A stretch of 64,000 nt of DNA from Bacillota bacterium (GCA_012840925.1 DUVS01000015.1:1-64000), one strand, 5' to 3'. Positions 39,466 to 51,494 are shown, counted from the stretch's first letter. Program-made: numbers and translations. Notes: generated by a model not told the origin, from the letters alone.

Positions 39466-39491
39466 AAAATTTATTCGGGAGGTTATTGCTG

Positions 39492-42107
39492 ATGAAAAGA
39501 ATTTCACTAGTTTTAGTCGCAGTACTCATCATGGCCATGTCTACATCAGTATTAGCATCTAGCAATCCATTCTCAGATGTACCAGCACATCACTGGGCTT
39601 ATGATTCCGTAACCAAACTTGCAGCAGTCGGTTTGGTAGAGGGGTATCCGGATGGTACATTTGGTGGAACCAGAACAATGACCAGATATGAAGCAGCCAT
39701 GGTCTTTGCTCGTGCTCTGGCCAGACTCGAGGCTCTTGTTGAGAGTCAGGTCATTGAGAATACTGCTGGAGTGCAAGAGCAGATTACAGCTGATGTTCTG
39801 GCTGAAATGGATGCTGCCATTGATGAACTCGTAGGATTGATTGAAGCTGAGTTTGCCAAGCTGGATGTTGCAATTGACGACACCGTGCAAGAGAAAGTAG
39901 CAATCCAACTGCAAGCTGCAGGGCCTGAGCTTCTAGTGACTGAGGAGGCTCAAGCAGTTCTCACTCAATTGGTTGGCGACTTGATGAAAGACTACTTGGC
40001 CGAAGCAAAAGAACTGGCCACTGAAACCATTGTTGAGACCGGTGTAATTGAAAGAGTAGTAGTGGAAGACGTTGACGAAGCAGTAGTCAAAGCCATTGCT
40101 GAAGAAGTATTGGCCAACAGCCTGTGGGCAATCAGCGAGCAGGTTGAAGCTGATGCTGACTATGTTGAAATGGTTGTTTCCAAGATTAACGACCGGTTAG
40201 GCCGCTTGACTACCAGAGTAGACCAGATTCAGGCCTCCTATGTCAGTCAAGAACAGTTAGCCGGCGAAGTGGAAGCAATTGATGACAGGTTGTTTGACAT
40301 TGAAGAACAGATTGCAGCCAATACTGATTATGTTGAAATGGTTACCTCCAAAACCAATGATCGTTTAGGCCGGGTAACCAGGAATGTAGATCTGTTGACT
40401 GCTGATGTGGCCGCTGTTAACGGCTTGATTGGCGCACTTGAAGGCGATGTCGCAGCTCTGCAACAAGCACTGACTGTTGAGACTGCAGATTTGGCTGCTA
40501 CTTTAGCCGACCTGCGCAATGAGTTCTCTGCAGAATTAGCTCTGTTGGGTGTACGCGTCGCTTATCTGGAGAGGTTCTATAAAGATCTGGATGGCCGTGT
40601 GGCCGCTGTTGAAGGTGCTGTAGCTGATCTTGATGCCGGACTTGCTGAGGTTGACGCTGCTGTAGCTGATGTTGACGCTGCTGTAGCTGATCTCGATGCT
40701 AAATTGGCTGAAGCTACCAAAGCACAGCTGAGCGGTTCGGTTAAGGTTGGCGCTGAATCCACAAGAATCTGGTATCTAGAGGACGAGGAAAAGCAAGACC
40801 TTGACGAAACTAATGGTCTTTTGAGCAACACATACACAAAGAAAGATCTAGCTTTCGACACAGCATTTGAAAGCACACTTGTTGCCAGAATCAACGAAGG
40901 TACCAATGTCAGCGTGATTCTGGGCGGCAAAGTCGATTTGCCAACACCAACCTTTGACAAGTATGTGTTAGAGATAACCAGCGATACTCCTGTTAACCTG
41001 CTGGCTTTGGGTACTGTAGGCAATTACCTCAGCTCGAGATTCGACGGTAATGCCTTAGCCGTGAAACCTGCCAAAGGTGCAGTTGCCGACTTAGCATTAG
41101 GCGGCCTGAAGCTGTCCGCACTGGCTGGTTTGAGAAGTGGCGATGGCATGCTGGCACTAGGTGCAAAATATGTAGTTGGCCCAGCTTTCGGCTTTAAGTT
41201 GACTGGTGCCGCATTGATCGATACAAATCTCCGTTATCAGGATGAAAACGCAGTTGCCGCCGGTATATTCGGCGAAGTATTAGGCATTGATTATGACCTG
41301 AAAGTAGCCATGGATCGTGTTAAAGATGCTGAATCCCAGGCTGACGGCGACGAAGAAGGCAGCTTGACCGACAACATGCTCTTTGATGTCAATTTGGGCA
41401 CAGAGATCGGTGCTCTTAAGGTATCTGCCAGATGGACCAAGGCCGGCTCAACATTCGGCGAGGGTACACTGACCGGCAGAGGATTCATTAATTCCGATGC
41501 TGCTACCAGACTGCGCCTGGATGCAGGAGCTGAGCTGTTAGGCGTCAATCTGAACGCTGGTACTTACAGCGAGAAAGATGACGAAGGCGAGCAGCTGATC
41601 AACTCTGCTATGTTCGATGCCGGGTATGAACTCAATATCTTCCTCCCAATCAACCTCTCCGGTGCATATGGTTGGAAGCTTGGCACAGGAGAAGAGAAGG
41701 ATGTTCACACCCAACTCAAGGTTGGCACAGGATTTACACTGTTCGGTATTGATGTCGACGGCAGTTTCACCTATGCCAAGAACGTCCTGAAAGGCGATTG
41801 GCGTGATCCGAGCAAATGGTCAGGTCAAGACATTAACTTCGTAAATGTTGGCCTTGGTTATGCTAAGGACGACTTAGGCGGAGCTAAACTTGATTTGGGC
41901 TATGACTTCGAATTGGCCATGCCAAGAGAAGATACCGCCGATCAGTTTGGTAACCAAATGACTCATGTATTGAGTGCCGGTTACACCTTCGGCCCTGGCT
42001 TGAAGTTGAACATGTCAGCCAAGAGAATCAACATCGGTCATGTTGATGAGAATCAACCTGCCGATAACGTAGATGTAGTTTCTGCTGGCCTAGAGTTCTC
42101 CTTCTAG
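39492..42107 (+). CDS. ompM: OmpM-type porin: SLH domain, periplasmic coiled coil, outer-membrane barrel
   Basis: OmpM proteins are the main outer-membrane tethers of diderm Firmicutes: the SLH domain binds wall polymer and the barrel sits in the outer membrane. The 871-residue protein has a signal peptide (about 1-23), one SLH domain (about 24-80: NPFSDVPAHHWAYDSV, GYPDGTF, MTRYEAA), about 330 residues of alanine/valine-rich coiled coil and a C-terminal barrel of about 450 residues ending ...SAGLEFSF. The coil contains repeated DYVEMV..K.NDRLGR units and DNA-level heptad repeats. ATG 39492 follows GGGAGG. A long structured leader and strong terminator suggest high expression. Confidence 0.93.
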   Translation: MKRISLVLVAVLIMAMSTSVLASSNPFSDVPAHHWAYDSVTKLAAVGLVEGYPDGTFGGTRTMTRYEAAMVFARALARLEALVESQVIENTAGVQEQITADVLAEMDAAIDELVGLIEAEFAKLDVAIDDTVQEKVAIQLQAAGPELLVTEEAQAVLTQLVGDLMKDYLAEAKELATETIVETGVIERVVVEDVDEAVVKAIAEEVLANSLWAISEQVEADADYVEMVVSKINDRLGRLTTRVDQIQASYVSQEQLAGEVEAIDDRLFDIEEQIAANTDYVEMVTSKTNDRLGRVTRNVDLLTADVAAVNGLIGALEGDVAALQQALTVETADLAATLADLRNEFSAELALLGVRVAYLERFYKDLDGRVAAVEGAVADLDAGLAEVDAAVADVDAAVADLDAKLAEATKAQLSGSVKVGAESTRIWYLEDEEKQDLDETNGLLSNTYTKKDLAFDTAFESTLVARINEGTNVSVILGGKVDLPTPTFDKYVLEITSDTPVNLLALGTVGNYLSSRFDGNALAVKPAKGAVADLALGGLKLSALAGLRSGDGMLALGAKYVVGPAFGFKLTGAALIDTNLRYQDENAVAAGIFGEVLGIDYDLKVAMDRVKDAESQADGDEEGSLTDNMLFDVNLGTEIGALKVSARWTKAGSTFGEGTLTGRGFINSDAATRLRLDAGAELLGVNLNAGTYSEKDDEGEQLINSAMFDAGYELNIFLPINLSGAYGWKLGTGEEKDVHTQLKVGTGFTLFGIDVDGSFTYAKNVLKGDWRDPSKWSGQDINFVNVGLGYAKDDLGGAKLDLGYDFELAMPREDTADQFGNQMTHVLSAGYTFGPGLKLNMSAKRINIGHVDENQPADNVDVVSAGLEFSF
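40650..40691 (+). repeat. Perfect 21-bp tandem repeat in ompM
   Basis: Two identical 21-nt units (40650-40670 and 40671-40691), each encoding VDAAVAD, inside a degenerate run (about 40617-40713) encoding further D-A-x-L/V-A heptads. Such repeats allow slippage that lengthens or shortens the periplasmic coil by whole heptads. Confidence 0.8.
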
Positions 42108-42207: not shown

Positions 42208-42615
42208 ATGGCAAAAGAAAAACGGCCAATTATGGCGATCGACCCCGGAAATGAAAAATGCGGCTTAGCCATTGTTTACCAGGACCAGGTTTTGCTCCAG
42301 GAGATTGTGGCTCGCAATAAAATTGTGGACAGACTTGTTGCCGTTTTGCCGCAAGCCGGGCCGATTGTGGTGGGCGACGGAACAGGAAGCAAGTCCTTTG
42401 TTCAAGAGTTAAGTCAAGCGATGCCTGATGTGGCGAACCGGATTGTAACCATTGATGAGAAGCTGTCCAGCGTGGAAGCGCGAGCACTATATTGGCGCCA
42501 GAATCCACCGAAAGGGTGGCGGCGCCTGTTCCCAGTGTCTTTGCAGACTCCGCCTGTACCAATTGATGATTATGTAGCGGTTATTTTGGCGAAACGATAT
42601 CTAGCTGGTAAATAG
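42208..42615 (+). CDS. RuvC/RuvX-like RNase H-fold protein
   Basis: A 135-residue protein with the opening MAIDPGNEKCGLAIV (first Asp), a TIDEKLSSVEARALYW segment (Glu) and PIDDYVAVILAKRYL (last Asp). These resemble the acidic triad of RuvC-like nucleases such as pre-16S rRNA nuclease YqgF/RuvX. It is shorter and more divergent than the true YqgF, with a Pro/Arg-rich loop (NPPKGWRRLFP). Whether it cuts Holliday junctions, rRNA precursor or nothing cannot be told. ATG 42208 follows ATAGGGAGGAG. It stands between two porin-like genes without obvious partners. Confidence 0.7.
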   Translation: MAKEKRPIMAIDPGNEKCGLAIVYQDQVLLQEIVARNKIVDRLVAVLPQAGPIVVGDGTGSKSFVQELSQAMPDVANRIVTIDEKLSSVEARALYWRQNPPKGWRRLFPVSLQTPPVPIDDYVAVILAKRYLAGK

Positions 42616-42747: not shown

Positions 42748-43989
42748 GTGAACAAGCGCATAATCGTCTTTTTTTTCCCCTTTATCATTTTGCTGCTGGC
42801 AACAACCTGCGCTGCTCAGGTACAAGAGACAGAGCAGTGGGTCTATGATGCTATCGATTATCTGAACCAAACGGATTTTGGGGAATTATTTGCTGATGTT
42901 AATCCGGAAAACCGCTACCAAGTATCGCTGGCTATTGCCAACACTATCCAGAAGTTAGAACTTAACGACAACACTCGGGTACAACGCTTTGGCCTCAGCC
43001 GCAGGATCAGTCTCAGGGATCTGTTTGACAACTACAATCAGCATGTCTCTGAACAGCAGCAGTTACCGGAAACGGCAATGTCGGTCCTTGCATTACTGGT
43101 CGATGAGTACCATAATGAATTGAACGTATTGGGATACTGGATCGAGGACATTCCTAGTAGCACTTTGACTTTAAAGCCGAATCAGGCGAAGACACCGGTT
43201 ACCTTCGGGGGCCATGTTCCCGGATCAGAACCGTTGACTCCCTTGTTAGACCAGGATGATCAAGAAGGTATCTTTAAGAATGAGATTGTAAAGAACCTTA
43301 ACAAAAGCAGTGTTTTAAGCAAGTACTTCAGCGATGATGAAGCAGATGATACAAGAATTCTGATTAACAGCCTGATTCCACTCTGGTCTTCAGACTGGTT
43401 TATTGGTGCCGGGTTGTCCCTGCCGGCCCTGCCGCAGGATGGAAGAGAGACATCAGAAGATGCGGGATATGCCGGGATCATAGGTGAATATTTGATCAAC
43501 CAGGATCTGGTCCTGGAAGGCCAGTACTTGCATAATCTGGCCCAGCCGTTGAATGCAGGTGTTCTGCAATTTGGTGCCAGAGGGCGGCTGGGTAATGTGA
43601 CTTTGCGGGGATTGGTCCAGACAGCAGAAGCCGATGCCGAAGGGGCCAAGGCAAGTTTAGACATTACTTATGCCACACCGAATTCCATTCTCATCAGGGC
43701 AGGTTATAATGCCAACCTGAAGACAGTCTCTCAGTTGGGATTTTCAGCCAGCACCAGCATTGACGTGGATATCCCGATTCAGCAAGGCCGGATTGCCCTG
43801 GGACTGGTGCAGAGATGGAATCAAGAAGGCGCGGACGATGAAGAAAACAATCAACTGACAGATCAGACCAGAGCCTCCATTGAATTTAGCTATGATCTTA
43901 CCAATGAGGTTTCCTTCAAGTTGGATTACCGCTTAATTGACTTCAGTGATGTGAATAAGGCGTTAGCAGAGTTTTCCATTAGATTCTAA
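42748..43989 (+). CDS. Predicted outer-membrane barrel protein, possibly with a degenerate SLH-like N-terminus
   Basis: A 413-residue exported protein with a signal peptide of about 23 residues. The next 45 residues (WVYDAIDYLNQTDFGELF, NRYQVSLAIANTIQKLE) recall an SLH domain, in which WAYDAI and TRYE are the usual anchors, but the motif is incomplete. After a linker, amphipathic strands from about residue 205 run to a terminal Phe (ALAEFSIRF), as expected for a barrel. The start is GTG 42748 behind TCGGAGGTGG. Together with ompM it suggests more than one outer-membrane/wall linker. Specific function unknown. Confidence 0.65.
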   Translation: MNKRIIVFFFPFIILLLATTCAAQVQETEQWVYDAIDYLNQTDFGELFADVNPENRYQVSLAIANTIQKLELNDNTRVQRFGLSRRISLRDLFDNYNQHVSEQQQLPETAMSVLALLVDEYHNELNVLGYWIEDIPSSTLTLKPNQAKTPVTFGGHVPGSEPLTPLLDQDDQEGIFKNEIVKNLNKSSVLSKYFSDDEADDTRILINSLIPLWSSDWFIGAGLSLPALPQDGRETSEDAGYAGIIGEYLINQDLVLEGQYLHNLAQPLNAGVLQFGARGRLGNVTLRGLVQTAEADAEGAKASLDITYATPNSILIRAGYNANLKTVSQLGFSASTSIDVDIPIQQGRIALGLVQRWNQEGADDEENNQLTDQTRASIEFSYDLTNEVSFKLDYRLIDFSDVNKALAEFSIRF

Positions 43990-44003: not shown

Positions 44004-44930
44004 ATGAAACTGAAAGCTGTTAGCTGCATTTTAGCTGTAGTTCTGCTGGTAAGTCCTTTTACAGTTGCCGCCCAGTCTACTACCTCGCCTTTGGCTGTCT
44101 TAAGCGAACTGGAACGAGTGTTGTTTGGACAGGAACAGCCGGGAGCATTGTTGGCACGGGTGGAGGCGATTGAAGTTGAGATCTTTGGGACTGCGCAATC
44201 TGGTCCGGTTATGACCAGAATAGATCGGATCGATGAATATCTTTCAGGCGATCTGAAAGGTTCAGGACTGAAATTACAGCTAAATTTGGTTGAGTGGGGC
44301 TTCCTTGAAAAGTTGACTGCTAACGAACCACTGGTGAGAAGGTTGGAACGGATTGAGATGGAGTTTATCGGTGAACCTCAATCCGGCTCGATTGTCGATC
44401 GAGTTGATCAGCTGATGATGTATATCTGGGGTACGACTAAACTAGATGCAGTTTCGATCAAGGTACCAGCGGAGACTTTGGTCGAGATCCAGATTCTAAC
44501 AAGTGTGGATTCAGCATTGAACAAGGTTGGAGACCTGGTGAAATACCAAGTGGCCTCCGATGTAGCTGTTGATGGCCGGATTGTCATTCCCAGGGGATCG
44601 CAGGGAGTTGGCAAGATCACCGAAGTCGTAAAAGCCGGTGGACTTGGTAAAAGCGGCAGAGTAGTAATTGATTTCGGATCAGTTTCCGCTTTTGATGGTA
44701 AGAATATCCGGCTGCGGGTTGCAGAAAAAGCTCTTGAACGAAACAGCCGCCTGGAGTTGGCTGCCGGCGCCAGCATGGCCGGGGTACTGCTTTTAGGTGG
44801 GCCGATTGGTTTGGTAAGCGGGTACTTTATTAAAGGCGAAGATGTGCAGATTGAGGCTGGATCGAAGTTCTTTGTTGAAACCGAAATTGAGTATCAGACA
44901 CTCGGGTTTCGCCTAGTTCCAGCCAACTAG
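44004..44930 (+). CDS. Exported protein with tandem FGxxQxG repeats and a C-terminal beta domain
   Basis: I do not recognise a named family. After a signal peptide (about 1-24) come repeats of the type E-(L/I)FGxxQ(P/S)Gx(L/V)xxR(V/I)xxI(D/E): LFGQEQPGALLARVEAIE, IFGTAQSGPVMTRIDRID, a weaker SGDLKGS copy, and FIGEPQSGSIVDRVDQLM. A beta-rich domain follows (about 150-305) with VDGRIVIPRGSQGVGKITEV, DGKNIRLR and a glycine-rich hydrophobic stretch (about 252-275), which resembles surface or periplasmic adaptor domains. ATG 44004 follows AAGGAGG. It sits 14 nt after the barrel gene, so the two probably form an operon closed by the terminator at 44961. Confidence 0.65.
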   Translation: MKLKAVSCILAVVLLVSPFTVAAQSTTSPLAVLSELERVLFGQEQPGALLARVEAIEVEIFGTAQSGPVMTRIDRIDEYLSGDLKGSGLKLQLNLVEWGFLEKLTANEPLVRRLERIEMEFIGEPQSGSIVDRVDQLMMYIWGTTKLDAVSIKVPAETLVEIQILTSVDSALNKVGDLVKYQVASDVAVDGRIVIPRGSQGVGKITEVVKAGGLGKSGRVVIDFGSVSAFDGKNIRLRVAEKALERNSRLELAAGASMAGVLLLGGPIGLVSGYFIKGEDVQIEAGSKFFVETEIEYQTLGFRLVPAN

Positions 44931-45079: not shown

Positions 45080-48000
45080 ATGAATGGTTCAAGGACAGCA
45101 AGAAAGAGATTAAGATTTATCTTGCCCTTTTCTCTTTTTCTTTCCTTATTCATATTCTCTACATCTGTTCTAACCAACACTGTGATTGGCAGCAACTATC
45201 TCCTGGGCGTTGGCGATGTCCTGGAAATAACGGTTTGGGGGCACCCCGAGCTGAAAACGACAGTCCAAGTGCGCCCTGATGGATATATCACTTTCCCTCT
45301 GGTGGGGGATCAGTTTGCCGACGGTAAGACAGCCAGCCAGCTGGCTGAAGAGATTCAGCAGCAATTATCCGCCTATGTGGTGGCTCCAAGTGTAACGATT
45401 ATTGTGGTTCAATTCCGCACTATCCGGGTACAGGTGTTGGGGGAAATCCACAAGCCCGGTTATTACCGCATAAGTGCGGGGGATCGGCTGCTGGATGCTA
45501 TCGGCCTTGCCGGCGGGCCGACAAACGAAGCAAACTTGTCTGAAGTTACCGTGACCAGAATGAGCGGTGGGACCGCGGATTTGTTCAAAGTAGATGTAAC
45601 CAGCTACATAGCTGAAGGCAATATTGCACATAACCCTCCCCTGCACGATGGTGATGTTATATATCTGCCTGCAGCTGGCAATGCTCTGGTTTTAGGAGCA
45701 GTACAGCGCCCAGGCAGTCACAGGGTACATCAGGATATGGATATTCTTGACTTATTGGCTGCTGGAGGAGGCGCATTGTCCGCAAGCGATTTGTCCCATG
45801 CGGTTTTAACCCGCAAGATCGGAGACTCTTCCACAGAGATGATTGTTGATCTTAATGCTATTATCCAATCTGGTAAAGGCAAAATACAGGTGCAAGCTGA
45901 TGACGTGTTATTCATCCCCCACAAGCAGCTTGCTGTACTTTTTGGCGAAGTAAAAGCTCCCGGCAGCTATGCTATCGAGCCGGAAATGACCCTGGCAGAG
46001 TTAATCGGTGCTGCCGGTGGGCTGACAGACATGGGTGATCCCGGCCAAGTAAGGATTGTCCGGGAGATTGATGGTGTGCGCCAGTCTTTGACGGTAGATC
46101 TTAGTGATACACTTACAGGTAAATCGGGAGCCAACCCACAAGTAGTCGGTGGCGATATCATTTTTGTCCCTGAGATCATGAACACTGTACTGGTCCTTGG
46201 TGAAGTGCGTCAACCGGGGGCCTTTACCTTGAAAGAACAGATGGGGATCCTGGATCTGATTGCAAAGGCAGGCAGTACAACTGCTAATGCGGCTTTAGAC
46301 CGGGTTACCTTGACCCGCCAAAGCGGCGACGTGGTACTGGTGCAGGAAATCAATCTTGCTCAGCTGCAGGGAACAGGCACCGGTAGAGATATTGAGCTTC
46401 TGCCGGGCGATGTCATTTTCGTTCCGGAAGGAGCACCTCAGGCGCTGGTCTTGGGACGGATTGCCAGGCCAGGCAGCTACCGGGTCAGTGAGAACATGAA
46501 TCTCTTGGATCTTCTGGCTTTAGCCGGAGGGCCCTTGGAAAGTGCTGGAGACCGGGTGTTGATCACCCGCAGCAATGAAACTACAGAGGTTAACTTAGGG
46601 GCGCTGACCCGATTAGGAATCGGTAATCAAAAAATCACGGCCGGCGATGTGATCTATGTAACAGAAGGCAGGCATCAGGTTCTGGTCTTGGGAGAAGTGC
46701 GTAATCCCGGTTACTACCGCCTGGAATTTGGCGATCGGGTACTTGATGGGATCGCCAAAGCAGGAGGCCTTCTGGACAGTGCAGCAGCAGATCTGGTCAG
46801 CATAACCAGACAAACAGAGGACCTCACCGACGTTTTCGCGGTAAACCTCGAGCTTTTGGAGCAAAACCGCTTCCTCGACAGTAATTTCCTGTTGGAGGGC
46901 GGCGATGTGATTATTGTTCCAGAAGCAAAACGTGATGTCATGGTTATTGGCGAGGTTGGCAAGCCTGGATCTTACCTGCTCGGTAAAGAACAACGCCTGC
47001 TGGATGTGATTGCGCAAGCCGGCGGCATGACTGACAATGCTGCCGTCGATGCTGTCCAGATCACAAGGATTGGACAGGACAACAGTTTACATACGGCCGT
47101 ATACGATTTAGACGCTGTGATTAAAGGTTTAAGCAGCGATAATCCATTGGTCGAACCGGGCGATATTGTCTATGTGCCAGAAACTAAGACTTCAGTACTG
47201 GTGTTTGGTGAAGTTACTGCACCTGGGTACTATCGAGCCACAGCTACCACAACCTTGCTTGATGTGATTGGACAAGCTAGAGGCTTAACCGACCAGGCAG
47301 ATGCCAAATCAGTGAGCCTGACACGGATCGTGGATGGAGAGACTGTCATCGAGACGATTGACCTGGATCTGATTATGCATACCGGCGAAGGCGACATACG
47401 CCTCACAGGCGGGGAAATGATTTTGATTCCCAAACTGGATCTGGAAGTTACGATTATCGGGGAAGTCAGGGTTCCGGGTCGTTACCGGATTCGCCAAGGC
47501 GAACGTTTGCTGGAGGTACTGGCTAAGGCTGGCGGCTTGACTGATGACGCCGATCCTTGGCTGACCATGACCAGATGGACTGATAATGAACAAGAAGTTT
47601 TGACGATCAACTATCGGGATTTGGTGCAGTCCAACTCGCCGGAGCTCAACCTGACTATTGTCGGAGGAGATATTATCTACATTCCAAGCATGAACCGGCG
47701 GATTCTGGTGTTTGGAGAGGTGGCCAGGCCCGGCGCATACCTTGTTGATCAGTTTACCACCTTGCTGGATGTGATCGCCCTCGCTGGGGGCCCGACCGCC
47801 AGAGCCAAACTTGATGAGGTCATGATTGCATCAGATTCATCTGGTGAACTGGTCCAATATTTGGATCTGAATGCAATCATCAACCAGGAACAGCCTAATC
47901 CGCTGCTGTTAGGTGGAGAGGTGATCCATATACCTGAGGCACGGCAGATTCTGGTCATGGGCGAAGTGGCCAGGCCGGGCGCCTTTAACCTTCCTGCTGG

Positions 48001-48544
48001 CGGCCGGGTTCTTGACTTGCTGGCATTGGCCGGTGGCCTGCGGAGCAGCTTGATGGATCAAGAGGTTATTGTCACCAGACAAGGGCCCGAAGGCGATCAG
48101 GTATGGATTGCTGATTACCGTTCATTGCTCAACAGTCCCAACGATCATAATCTGCTGCTTGCTGGAGGAGACGTAGTCTTTGTACCTGAGGTAAGTCGTC
48201 AGGTTGTGGTTTTAGGTGAAGTTGCCAGACCGGGAGTCTATTCGGTTTATGAAGGAGCCCGGCTGCTGGATGCCATTGCCATGGCTGGCGGATCTACAGA
48301 AAAGGCAGAACTTGGATCCGTGGGTATTTACCGCGGTGGCGATCTGACAGATCCGGCCACATTCTCCATGGGACAAGATCGGATCCTGTTCCAGGGTGAT
48401 GCCAGTGAAAATCCTGTAATTCGCGGTGGGGACGTTATCTACGTTCCAAAGACTACAAAGCCGGATTGGAATACAATCTTAGGCATCATGAGCGGTGTGC
48501 GTACGTTCCAGCAGATCATTGAATGGTTCATACCAGATAAATAG
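45080..48544 (+). CDS. Giant Wza-like polysaccharide export protein with twelve SLBB repeats
   Basis: The 1154-residue protein begins with a signal/anchor (about 12-35) lacking a lipobox Cys. A Poly_export domain follows (about 40-115: LGVGDVLEITVWGHPELK, VRPDGYITFPLVGD). Then come twelve SLBB units spaced about 85-95 residues, each opening like VLVLGEVRxPGxYR and ending in GGDVIYVPE. Wza has two or three. The C-terminal 30 residues (ILGIMSGVRTFQQIIEWF) could form an amphipathic helix like the Wza outer-membrane crown. ATG 45080 follows GGGGAGG. It heads an operon with Wzz, BY-kinase and PHP phosphatase, so polymer export is the likely role; the stacked SLBB rings may span the periplasm. Confidence 0.88.
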   Translation: MNGSRTARKRLRFILPFSLFLSLFIFSTSVLTNTVIGSNYLLGVGDVLEITVWGHPELKTTVQVRPDGYITFPLVGDQFADGKTASQLAEEIQQQLSAYVVAPSVTIIVVQFRTIRVQVLGEIHKPGYYRISAGDRLLDAIGLAGGPTNEANLSEVTVTRMSGGTADLFKVDVTSYIAEGNIAHNPPLHDGDVIYLPAAGNALVLGAVQRPGSHRVHQDMDILDLLAAGGGALSASDLSHAVLTRKIGDSSTEMIVDLNAIIQSGKGKIQVQADDVLFIPHKQLAVLFGEVKAPGSYAIEPEMTLAELIGAAGGLTDMGDPGQVRIVREIDGVRQSLTVDLSDTLTGKSGANPQVVGGDIIFVPEIMNTVLVLGEVRQPGAFTLKEQMGILDLIAKAGSTTANAALDRVTLTRQSGDVVLVQEINLAQLQGTGTGRDIELLPGDVIFVPEGAPQALVLGRIARPGSYRVSENMNLLDLLALAGGPLESAGDRVLITRSNETTEVNLGALTRLGIGNQKITAGDVIYVTEGRHQVLVLGEVRNPGYYRLEFGDRVLDGIAKAGGLLDSAAADLVSITRQTEDLTDVFAVNLELLEQNRFLDSNFLLEGGDVIIVPEAKRDVMVIGEVGKPGSYLLGKEQRLLDVIAQAGGMTDNAAVDAVQITRIGQDNSLHTAVYDLDAVIKGLSSDNPLVEPGDIVYVPETKTSVLVFGEVTAPGYYRATATTTLLDVIGQARGLTDQADAKSVSLTRIVDGETVIETIDLDLIMHTGEGDIRLTGGEMILIPKLDLEVTIIGEVRVPGRYRIRQGERLLEVLAKAGGLTDDADPWLTMTRWTDNEQEVLTINYRDLVQSNSPELNLTIVGGDIIYIPSMNRRILVFGEVARPGAYLVDQFTTLLDVIALAGGPTARAKLDEVMIASDSSGELVQYLDLNAIINQEQPNPLLLGGEVIHIPEARQILVMGEVARPGAFNLPAGGRVLDLLALAGGLRSSLMDQEVIVTRQGPEGDQVWIADYRSLLNSPNDHNLLLAGGDVVFVPEVSRQVVVLGEVARPGVYSVYEGARLLDAIAMAGGSTEKAELGSVGIYRGGDLTDPATFSMGQDRILFQGDASENPVIRGGDVIYVPKTTKPDWNTILGIMSGVRTFQQIIEWFIPDK

Positions 48545-48562: not shown

Positions 48563-50011
48563 GTGAACATGGAAGAGATGGATCTGTTAGAGTTATGGCA
48601 GATACTGATGAAGCGCAAAATCCAAATTGTTTTGTTTTTTATCCTGGCAGTTGTGGCCGCTGGGGTCGTGAGCATTTATACAGAGCCAGTGTTTCAAGCC
48701 AAGACAACTTTGATGTTTAAAAATGAACAATCCAATGCGTTGACTGCGTTTAACCCCTTGAGTTCGATAACCGGGTCTTCAGTCAATGTGATGCTGCAAA
48801 ACTATATCTATATGCTCAAAAGCCGGTCGATGCTGACTAAAGTTTTAACAGAGCTGGGTTGGGATGAGATTACGAGCGAAAATCTCAGGAATATTGATCT
48901 GAATCTCAAGGTGCAGCTGGTTTCCGGCACTGAGATTCTCGAGATCAGTTTTGAGTCAGAAGACAAGGAGTTTGCCACTGAGTTTGTCAATACCCTCAGC
49001 CAAGTCTTTGCTGATTCGATCCGGGATGCAAATAGATCTGATTTGCGGACTACCGGCGACTATCTCATGGAACAGATTGAGATTGTAGCTGCTCAACTGC
49101 GGGAGGCGGAAGAGAGCCTCAGGATGTTCCGGGAAACCGAACGGGTGATTCAGCCTATGCAGGACTCATCCATGCTGGTGCAGCAGTATATGCAGTGGGA
49201 CAATCAGCTGGCTCAGGCAAAAATTGCCAGGATTGAGGCTGAACAGCGCTTACAGCAGATCCAGGACAAACTGGCTGCCCAAGAGGAGTTCATCATCTCG
49301 TCAACCACAATTCAGAATAACCCCCTGGTTCAATCATATCAGCAGCGTTTGGCTGATCTAGAGATTTCCTTATCCGGGGCGCTCCAGTTATATACTGATC
49401 GCCATCCTGAAGTCTTGAGCCTGCAGGCAGAAATTGCAGAAACCCGTACCAAGCTGGCAAGTGAGGTGCAGCGGATTACAGCCACTGAAACAATGTCCAT
49501 CAATCCGATCCACAGTGAACTGCTTACCCAGCTCATATTTGCTCAAGTGGAACTGGTTGCTCTGGACGCCAGGGAACAAGCAATCCATCAAATGAGGGAC
49601 GAGTTGGACCAGGAGTACAGCCATATACCCCAGAAAGAGCTGGAGCTGATGCGGTTAATGCGCACAGTATCAGTTCATGAAGATATATATTTGATGCTCA
49701 TGACTCGCTATGAGGAAATCCGTATCAATGAACAAATGCATTCCGGCTATCTTCAGATTGTCGATCCGGCGATTGTTCCAGAAAAACCGGTTAAACCTCG
49801 CATTAAGCTCAATATGGCTATTGGTGGTGTGCTGGGGTTGTTCCTCGGCATTGGGACTGCATTTCTGATGGAGTTTCTGGACAACACGATCAAGACCAAA
49901 GAAGATGTGGAGAAGTTCTTGTCACTTCCCGTTATTGGCCAGATTCCTCAGATCAACAACAATCAGCGGTTGAGCCCGAGTTCCAGGTTTAAACAGAGTA
50001 TAAGGATGTGA
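48563..50011 (+). CDS. Polysaccharide chain-length/co-polymerase protein (Wzz/GNVR family)
   Basis: Inner-membrane polysaccharide co-polymerase that sets chain length and works with the tyrosine kinase. The 482-residue protein has an N-terminal Wzz domain with the first helix at about 20-40, a long periplasmic coiled coil (about 150-385) and a second helix (about 410-432) followed by EFLDNTIKTKEDVEKFLSLP and VIGQIP at the cytoplasmic end. GTG 48563 follows AGGAGGTG. The kinase gene begins 3 nt after its stop; in Gram-negative Wzc these are fused, here they are split as in Firmicutes. Confidence 0.93.
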   Translation: MNMEEMDLLELWQILMKRKIQIVLFFILAVVAAGVVSIYTEPVFQAKTTLMFKNEQSNALTAFNPLSSITGSSVNVMLQNYIYMLKSRSMLTKVLTELGWDEITSENLRNIDLNLKVQLVSGTEILEISFESEDKEFATEFVNTLSQVFADSIRDANRSDLRTTGDYLMEQIEIVAAQLREAEESLRMFRETERVIQPMQDSSMLVQQYMQWDNQLAQAKIARIEAEQRLQQIQDKLAAQEEFIISSTTIQNNPLVQSYQQRLADLEISLSGALQLYTDRHPEVLSLQAEIAETRTKLASEVQRITATETMSINPIHSELLTQLIFAQVELVALDAREQAIHQMRDELDQEYSHIPQKELELMRLMRTVSVHEDIYLMLMTRYEEIRINEQMHSGYLQIVDPAIVPEKPVKPRIKLNMAIGGVLGLFLGIGTAFLMEFLDNTIKTKEDVEKFLSLPVIGQIPQINNNQRLSPSSRFKQSIRM

Positions 50012-50014
50012 TTC

Positions 50015-50716
50015 TTGGTGGTGAGGAATTATACAGGACAATTGATTGTGCAAGATGACCCAAAAGCAATCGGCTCAGAGGCATTTCGCACTTTACGGAC
50101 TAATCTGCAGTTTGCATCGTTGAATGAAGAACTGGTAACGATTTCATTGACCAGTACCGGCCTCTCTGAAGGCAAGTCGGTGGTTTGCTCGAATCTGGCT
50201 GTATCGATCGCCCAGACCGGCAGCAGAGTGATTCTGGTTGACTGCGACTTGAGGAAACCTGTCATCCATAGAATCTTCGGGCTCAGAAACAGCGTTGGCT
50301 TAACAACCGTGTTGACCGGTCAGAGTGATATTGAATCGGCATTGCAGAAAACTGGCTCTGAAAATTTGCGAGTACTAACTGCCGGGCCGATACCACCAAA
50401 CCCTGCCGAATTACTGCAGTCGAAGAGTATGCAGCAAACGCTGGAGGAGATTAAGGGCCTGGCTGACAAAATTTTGATTGACGCTCCTCCGGTTCTGCCG
50501 GTGGCAGATGCTATGATTTTGGCCTCCTATGTAGATGGCGTTATTTTCGTCGTTGGGGTACATCAAGCCCCCAGGGAGATGGTTCGCCGGGCCAAGGAAC
50601 AGTTGGAAAGCACCAACGTCAGGATTTTGGGAGTAGTTTTGAACAAGGTCAAGTATAACAGCAGAAGTGAACACTACTACTATGACTATTACAGATCAAG
50701 TGAGCATGATGGATAA
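50015..50716 (+). CDS. cpsD: Bacterial tyrosine (BY) kinase, CpsD/CapB type
   Basis: Autophosphorylating tyrosine kinase that controls polysaccharide polymerisation and export. The 233-residue protein has Walker A in TGLSEGKSVV, Walker A' VILVDCDLRKP, Walker B ILIDAPPVLPVADA and a C-terminal Tyr cluster (HYYYDYYRS) for autophosphorylation. The residue before the Walker A glycine region is Leu where Pro is usual. TTG 50015 lies 3 nt after wzz. The phosphatase gene overlaps its 3' end. Confidence 0.94.
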   Translation: MVVRNYTGQLIVQDDPKAIGSEAFRTLRTNLQFASLNEELVTISLTSTGLSEGKSVVCSNLAVSIAQTGSRVILVDCDLRKPVIHRIFGLRNSVGLTTVLTGQSDIESALQKTGSENLRVLTAGPIPPNPAELLQSKSMQQTLEEIKGLADKILIDAPPVLPVADAMILASYVDGVIFVVGVHQAPREMVRRAKEQLESTNVRILGVVLNKVKYNSRSEHYYYDYYRSSEHDG

Positions 50717-51494
50717 GATGATCGACCTGCATACACATATTTTACCAGGCATCGATGATGGTGCCAGGGATGCAGCCATGGCGCTGCGGATGGCGCAGCA
50801 AGCCGTTGGGCGTGGAATCGAAATTGTGGCTGCCACTCCCCACTTTATTAATCTGACGTGGGATCAGGTTAGAGCTGAAACAGAAAAACTGCGGAAGCTT
50901 CTAGCAGATCATCGGATCAGTCTGACAGTTGTCGCTGGCGCTGAGTTATTCGTTGATCCTGGTCTGATGGACCTGGCAAAGGACAACATACCTACTTATA
51001 ATGATGCCGGCAAATACTGTCTGATTGAATTTCCCATGTTGGAGCTCCCCTCCTACATTGACCAGGTGCTTTTTTCTCTGCAAGTCAAGGGCATAACTCC
51101 GGTTATAGCTCATCCAGAGCGTAATCGGGTGGTAATCAGGGATCCAAATCTGGTTGCTCACTGGATTGGGTCAGGTTGTTTAATCCAGATCAATGCCAAC
51201 AGTCTCTTAGGGAATTTCGGTGCAGATGTGCAGCGGATAGCGGAAATCATGCTCCAGCACCAAATGGTGCACTTTATTGCCAGCGATGCCCATTCCGTTA
51301 ACAACCGCGGCTTTTATCTCGATCGCAGTGTGGAATCGGCACGGCGGCTGGTAACACGAGAAACCGCAGCACTATTGGTCTCCGGCAATCCTGCACGAGT
51401 AATCGCCGGAGAACAGGTTGAAGTGCCGGAAGTTATTTCGTATCGCCCGCAGCGGCGCTTTTGGAATTTCTGGAAGCAAAGGAGGGATTACTAA
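50706..51494 (+). CDS. cpsB: PHP-type protein-tyrosine phosphatase (CpsB/YwqE)
   Basis: Metal-dependent phosphatase that dephosphorylates the BY-kinase. The PHP motifs are all present: MIDLHTHILPGIDDGA, VAATPHFI, AGAELFVDP, IAHPERNR and the final SDAHSV. Several in-frame ATGs (50706, 50709, 50718) compete, none with a strong ribosome site. I use 50706, which overlaps cpsD by 11 nt and implies translational coupling. The next gene overlaps by 1 nt. Confidence 0.93.
   Translation: MMDKMIDLHTHILPGIDDGARDAAMALRMAQQAVGRGIEIVAATPHFINLTWDQVRAETEKLRKLLADHRISLTVVAGAELFVDPGLMDLAKDNIPTYNDAGKYCLIEFPMLELPSYIDQVLFSLQVKGITPVIAHPERNRVVIRDPNLVAHWIGSGCLIQINANSLLGNFGADVQRIAEIMLQHQMVHFIASDAHSVNNRGFYLDRSVESARRLVTRETAALLVSGNPARVIAGEQVEVPEVISYRPQRRFWNFWKQRRDY

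Follow-up and report, generated by a model that had tools for sequence, protein, structure and literature searches.

SLBB unit number of a Wza-family exporter follows the coil of an outer-membrane tether, suggesting an export tube matched in length to the cell envelope

The window analyzed here is a stretch of 64,000 nucleotides from a member of the Bacillota (GCA_012840925.1 DUVS01000015.1:1-64000). It contains a gene for a Wza-family outer-membrane polysaccharide export (OPX) protein, flanked by genes for a co-polymerase, a kinase and a phosphatase on one side and by genes for a tether, a putative beta-barrel protein and a secreted protein on the other. The relevant features are as follows.

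39486–42107, + strand: OmpM-type tether with SLH domain, coil and beta-barrel-like part, four genes upstream of the exporter; used as the ruler
about 39768–40721, + strand: OmpM coil, 318 residues
about 40722–42104, + strand: OmpM beta-barrel-like part
42748–43989, + strand: 413-aa putative outer-membrane beta-barrel protein, candidate exit partner (weak profile matches, synteny)
44004–44930, + strand: 308-aa secreted protein with a weak TrbI-like match and conserved synteny
45080–48544, + strand: multi-SLBB OPX (Wza-family) gene, 1154 aa, one ORF with ATG start
45080–45181, + strand: signal sequence region without lipobox cysteine (sequence; helix at residues 10–33 in the full-length AF2 model)
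45191–45406, + strand: Poly_export domain (PF02563), equivalent of Wza D1 (Pfam, model superposition)
45428–45931, + strand: SLBB units 1 and 2, equivalents of Wza D2 and D3, kept across the order
45932–47947, + strand: SLBB units 3–10, middle section, variable among relatives (unit starts 45932, 46187, 46442, 46679, 46937, 47195, 47447 and 47702)
47948–48442, + strand: SLBB units 11 and 12 (starts 47948 and 48203), distal end, conserved
48464–48541, + strand: C-terminal amphipathic stretch, DWNTILGIMSGVRTFQQIIEWFIPDK, without Wza_C match
48563–50011, + strand: polysaccharide co-polymerase (Wzz + GNVR), constant in length among relatives
50015–50716, + strand: tyrosine autokinase (BY-kinase)
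50667–51494, + strand: CpsB/CapC-type phosphatase

The window also contains lpxB, fabZ, lptB, lptF/G, an LptD-like gene, ompH and an Omp85 gene. These genes mark the host as an LPS-type diderm; it is a member of the Bacillota, class Limnochordia. Cultured Limnochordia have an outer membrane that is visible by electron microscopy (PMC11456536). A RuvX/YqgF-like gene (42208–42615) sits within the envelope operon between the genes for the tether and the putative barrel.

The exporter begins with a hydrophobic signal sequence, in which the sequence offers no cysteine for lipidation. By Pfam analysis this N-terminus is followed by a single Poly_export domain (PF02563, residues 38–109, E 1.1e-24, above the cut-off) and by SLBB stretches, of which PF10531 detects exactly 12 (E 1.3e-129 for the protein as a whole) and PF22461 likewise 12. 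A motif scan placed the unit starts at residues 117, 202, 285, 370, 455, 534, 620, 706, 790, 875, 957 and 1042, which corresponds to a spacing of 79–86 residues. The units are 23–48% identical in pairwise comparison (mean 36%), and the twelve-unit array is both far beyond chance and conserved. The domain-by-domain HMM counting that had been proposed as a check, together with the motif scan, thus bears out the initial reading of one Poly_export domain with twelve SLBB-like units. The accompanying statement that Wza-type exporters carry two or three rings was off, because a published survey already tabulates OPX proteins with 1–14 SLBB domains (PMC9603273). Having more than three units is therefore not new in itself, and twelve is no record. 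The tail after the last unit measures 26 residues, and NCBIfam assigns the protein to the EpsE / XrtA-system export family. As a yardstick for the length of the exporter we used the published median for class 1 OPX proteins, 378 aa.

Comparison with known systems places this protein as follows. Wza from E. coli (class 1 OPX; PDB 2j58 and 2w8i; Wza–Wzc complex, PMC12881504) also consists of a Poly_export domain followed by SLBB layers, and its locus also contains co-polymerase, tyrosine kinase and phosphatase functions adjoining the exporter. In contrast to Wza with its 2 SLBB domains, the exporter described here contains 12, lacks a lipoprotein cysteine and a Wza_C match, and ends in a much shorter helix; its co-polymerase and kinase are encoded by separate genes. 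Class 3 OPX proteins such as Myxococcus WzaB (PDB 9n9a; PMC9603273, PMC9601211) share the Poly_export–SLBB plan without Wza_C or GfcC and also have a putative beta-barrel gene nearby, but only 1–7 SLBB domains are tabulated for them (PMC9603273). In that class an extended co-polymerase offsets a short OPX protein, whereas here the OPX protein is extended and the co-polymerase is constant. GfcC and KpsD (PDB 3p42) resemble the exporter in their SLBB-like folds and short (21-residue) C-terminal amphipathic helix, but GfcC has neither a Poly_export domain nor a long SLBB array, and the exporter showed no match to Caps_synth_GfcC (PF06251, class 2, KpsD-like) at E 0.001. In architecture it agrees with multi-SLBB OPX proteins in general (1–14 units, PMC9603273). 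A link between SLBB number and envelope dimensions was not found in the literature we searched.

We then consider how these domains may be arranged. An AF2 model of the full-length protein based on 9 sequences (pLDDT 62.6, pTM 0.27) contains the same beta-grasp pattern in twelve copies, with poorly determined domain orientations. The apparent misfit of this model to Wza (14.9 Å) was disregarded in favor of a model based on 47 sequences. This second prediction, covering Poly_export and SLBB units 1–3 (pLDDT 93.2, pTM 0.70), superposes with its first 248 residues onto domains D1-D2-D3 of Wza with 4.4 Å over 243 residues (Z 19.1). Layers one to three are thus predicted to lie as in the ring stack of Wza, and not as loose, bead-like units, the outcome that the preliminary description had set against its tube. 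Both models are of a single chain; the exporter would form an oligomer and a closed tube.

At its distal end this tube was initially thought to insert a C-terminal helix into the outer membrane. An amphipathic C-terminal stretch of about 20 residues is indeed conserved in relatives, and to this extent the idea stands. The terminal 113 residues of the exporter gave no match to Wza_C (PF18412) up to E 10, and the helix is shorter than the 35 residues found in Wza. Both observations would also fit an SLBB tube that ends short of the outer membrane, docked to a beta-barrel such as the 413-aa protein, an arrangement that has been suggested for class 3 OPX proteins; the short helix would then be peripheral or serve for docking. 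The putative barrel gene is kept two genes upstream of the exporter with conserved synteny, and OPX/beta-barrel pairs are common (PMC9603273, PMC9601211), which makes a composite translocon possible (compare PMC9601211). However, the barrel call rests on weak profile matches (OMP_b-brl, E 0.034; Porin_4, E 0.064) and a C-terminal Phe, and a 20-residue amphipathic helix, which occurs in all relatives including exporters with 1–2 SLBB units, could form a pore. Exit by way of a partner is thus a serious possibility that falls short of probable. As a rival reading it concerns the outer-membrane step only and is compatible with a long tube; the way out through the outer membrane may be formed by the exporter or by a partner. 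The 413-aa protein itself combines a degenerate SLH-like start with a barrel-like C-terminus.

The cargo is presumably a polysaccharide. The host genome (G000) contains exporter, co-polymerase, kinase and phosphatase, yet neither the initiating transferase (PF02397) nor the polymerase (PF04932) was detectable in it. PF02397 is present in only 5 of 37 genomes of the order. A Wzx/Wzy locus was not found in the genome, where the two PF01943 matches belong to a 602-aa protein and a MATE-like protein.

Multi-SLBB exporters are widespread in the class. To count units outside the window we used an HMM built from the window's own units; most of the genomes compared are MAGs. A Poly_export domain occurs in 42 of 73 Limnochordia genomes, and the complete genes among them encode 7 to 16 SLBB units, apart from one divergent gene with 6. 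In the genus of the host, the complete genes from three further genomes encode 12, 12 and 13 units. Exporters from other Bacillota lineages contain 1–13 units, and those from one lineage contain 19. Three counts (G039, G012, G011) were inferred from split genes. In G039, one contig edge carries Poly_export with 9 SLBB units and a second contig edge carries 19 SLBB units, with edge fragments of 43 and 39 aa that together amount to about one unit. Since this genome has only one Poly_export match, the two pieces probably represent one gene, which would encode about 28 units. An array of 19 units lies beyond the surveyed range of 1–14 (PMC9603273), as does the probable one of 28. Several adjacent units in the split G039 exporter (L088 in G039:C17 and L087 in G039:C61) are 68–79% identical.

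Matching every unit of every relative to the twelve units in the window located the changes in unit number. Among relatives in the order, units 1–2 and 11–12 are in place, and units in the middle have been gained, lost or duplicated. The thirteenth unit in G001, from the same genus, is an in-frame insertion beside unit 8, and the two neighbors are 63% identical. Two exporters from one genus (L089 in G040, L097 in G067) are encoded in two overlapping frames broken at a similar place, either because both carry the same frameshift or because sequencing of the GC-rich DNA was faulty. Two contigs labeled as Verrucomicrobiota (L136 and L137; JAKQKQ010000058.1 and JAKQKQ010000225.1) carry fragments of multi-SLBB exporters. 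As the C-terminus of one fragment is near-identical to that from Firmicutes bacterium UBA5389, these contigs are probably mis-binned.

If unit number sets the length of a tube, it should be compared with a second measure of the envelope, and the OmpM-type protein encoded upstream may provide one. Its N-terminus is an SLH domain (E 2.9e-12), the coil has a helical hydrophobic periodicity (z 3–4) and one Pro in 318 residues, and the C-terminal part has a strand-like periodicity (z 4.9) and a C-terminal Phe but no barrel profile match. With this putative barrel, its plan would be the SLH-coil-barrel one of the OmpM and SlpA tethers (PMC10628300, PMC9388160). In Deinococcus SlpA, the coil of 28 nm equals the distance between wall and outer membrane, measured as 30 ± 3 nm (PMC9388160). 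By analogy, the OmpM coil would measure the wall-to-outer-membrane gap. With one and the same measuring method, the coil has 318 residues here compared to 22–24 in Negativicutes-like genomes.

That OmpM is longer where the exporter contains more SLBB units was first noticed in ten loci. For quantification, everything between the SLH domain and the first barrel strand was counted as coil, with barrel starts assigned by eye from the sequence; a composition change-point for the barrel start performed poorly in several proteins, and the first strand was used instead. For OmpM we took either the gene beside the exporter or the genome's best match, averaging the lengths where two copies exist. Genomes with uncertain SLBB counts (G002, G015, G018, G019, G023, G072, G222 and G290) were left out of the final correlation.

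In 23 Limnochordia genomes, coil length and SLBB number correlate with rho 0.85, a slope of 22.6 residues per SLBB unit (calculated without G039) and an intercept near zero. With n = 24 the values are rho 0.88 and, without the 28-unit genome, 22.3 residues per unit. Because some of the class data had prompted the hypothesis, the cleaner test is a set of 20 genomes from other classes. This set gave a slope of 22.8 ± 2.6 and rho 0.78, and its coils deviated from the class line by a median of 11 residues. In three Negativicutes-like genomes, whose exporters have a single SLBB unit, the coils measure 22–24 residues, against 25 predicted, and in family f64 the coils in 5 of 6 genomes are within 11 residues of prediction. 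All 44 genomes, from 20 families, correlate with rho 0.87, and the family means (n = 20) with rho 0.88 (p 3.7e-7). This test of the tube idea, SLBB number against tether coil over 44 genomes, is new.

Shared ancestry could produce such a relation as a by-product, as could a general tendency to long proteins, while SLBB number merely drifts by unequal crossing-over and has no length function. The recent in-frame gain in G001 left the coil unchanged, as drift would allow, and MlaD, which is thought to be trans-envelope and was tried as an additional ruler, scales weakly (n = 8, rho 0.62, not significant). TamB was dropped for the same purpose because it is present in too few OPX-bearing genomes. 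Independent contrasts computed on the OPX gene tree argue against drift, with r 0.92, a slope of 20.8 and agreeing signs in 30 of 32 cases; r is 0.63 after removal of the 8 largest contrasts. Furthermore, the slope is equal inside and outside the class, the co-polymerase is constant (471–496 aa) across 7–28 SLBB units, and the OmpM barrel is nearly constant, growing by about 5 residues per unit. Drift without function is therefore already disfavored, and we consider it highly improbable.

Other SLH-coil proteins follow the same trend. A second one, encoded elsewhere in the same genomes (344–474 aa; G000:C20:51935-52810 and equivalents), gained 20 residues per SLBB unit (n = 19, rho 0.90). In family f23 (L288–L292), OmpM is replaced by SLH-coil proteins with a terminal transmembrane stretch, encoded near multi-SLBB exporters. 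The five genomes, with 6, 8, 10, 11 and 13 SLBB units, have coils of 137, 151, 161, 190 and 259 residues, in perfect rank order. Outliers with regard to SLBB number and coil residues are G238 (1, 225), G138 (7, 243), G385 (10, 303) and G084 (2, 121), and one-unit steps (9 vs 10, 12 vs 13) leave the coil unchanged and are not resolved. The OmpM coil in the 19-SLBB genome (L282, G216) is a series of repeats, each about 39 residues long and almost identical in sequence (ALLEQKAELTMAFYDSIQALRDENEQKFAAI...), which gives the impression of lengthening by duplication. The coil of 664 residues in G039 is the longest in any exporter-bearing genome seen. G053 and G056, which have no Poly_export match, encode OmpM-like SLH proteins (L232 and L233) that are 1837 and 1878 aa long and whose coils are estimated at more than 1100 residues.

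The rise per residue in a coiled coil is 1.485 Å, so that 22 residues correspond to about 33 Å per SLBB unit; the slopes together give 31–36 Å. Stacked D1–D4 of Wza has a length of 140 Å (PMC12881504), and division by four domains gives 35 Å per layer, close to this value. SLBB number thus scales with an independent envelope ruler, which supports the long periplasmic tube of the preliminary description. On balance, we favor the view that SLBB number and SLH-tether coil length are co-evolving rulers of the same distance, with about 22 coil residues for each ring.

A rod of similar length might give the same numbers. In this case the SLBB array would be a monomeric or thin, non-ring tether between co-polymerase and outer membrane, with the sugar handled otherwise. 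Its length would still follow the gap, and its rise per unit would be so similar to that of a ring that this value cannot separate the two; moreover, SLBB is a beta-grasp domain that is also used outside rings (ComEA, NuoF matches). In contrast, Poly_export, SLBB1 and SLBB2 are predicted to be arranged as in Wza, and in such an operon context Wza and its relatives are octamers. We therefore regard the rod as unlikely, and a long OPX tube with a modular length set by SLBB number as likely.

Such a tube may work as follows. The Poly_export domain would form the inner ring seated on the co-polymerase (48563–50011), and twelve SLBB rings atop this ring would extend it into a hollow tube, about 40 nm long, that spans the distance from the wall to the outer membrane. 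Co-polymerase and Poly_export ring would occupy the space between inner membrane and wall, leaving the SLBB rings to fill the space between wall and outer membrane; the near-zero intercept fits this division. SLBB number would act as a modular length setting, with fixed units at the co-polymerase and outer-membrane ends; through in-frame gain or loss of middle units, the tube would keep to the spacing that the OmpM tether imposes.

The preliminary description had the tube cross a thick-walled periplasm, and in this form the idea finds no support. There is good support for a long tube, but the quantity that scales with it is the OmpM coil, that is, the gap between wall and outer membrane. We found no evidence from the host organism for a thick peptidoglycan as the cause of tube length, and the one statement on wall thickness in other diderm Bacillota that our literature search yielded describes the peptidoglycan layer of Negativicutes and Halanaerobiia as thin (PMC11448272). 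This explanation, very unlikely in our estimation, was rejected as unsupported. For the host, the relation predicts a wall-to-outer-membrane gap of about 40–47 nm; the whole periplasm of the Negativicute Veillonella measures 24.2 nm (PMC10665443).

The question of how trans-envelope machines match periplasmic width has mainly been studied by changing Lpp length in E. coli. The present data suggest that the length of the exporter, as a tube, is adapted to the depth of the envelope: across about 20 families, an export tube has apparently gained rings in proportion to the length of the tether that holds the outer membrane at a distance. If true, the envelope depth of lineages that nobody can grow would be readable from sequence. 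Outer-periplasm gaps would then range from about 3 nm (1 SLBB unit) to nearly 100 nm (28 SLBB units, 664-residue coil), and unusually wide envelopes would be predicted in early-branching diderm Bacillota.
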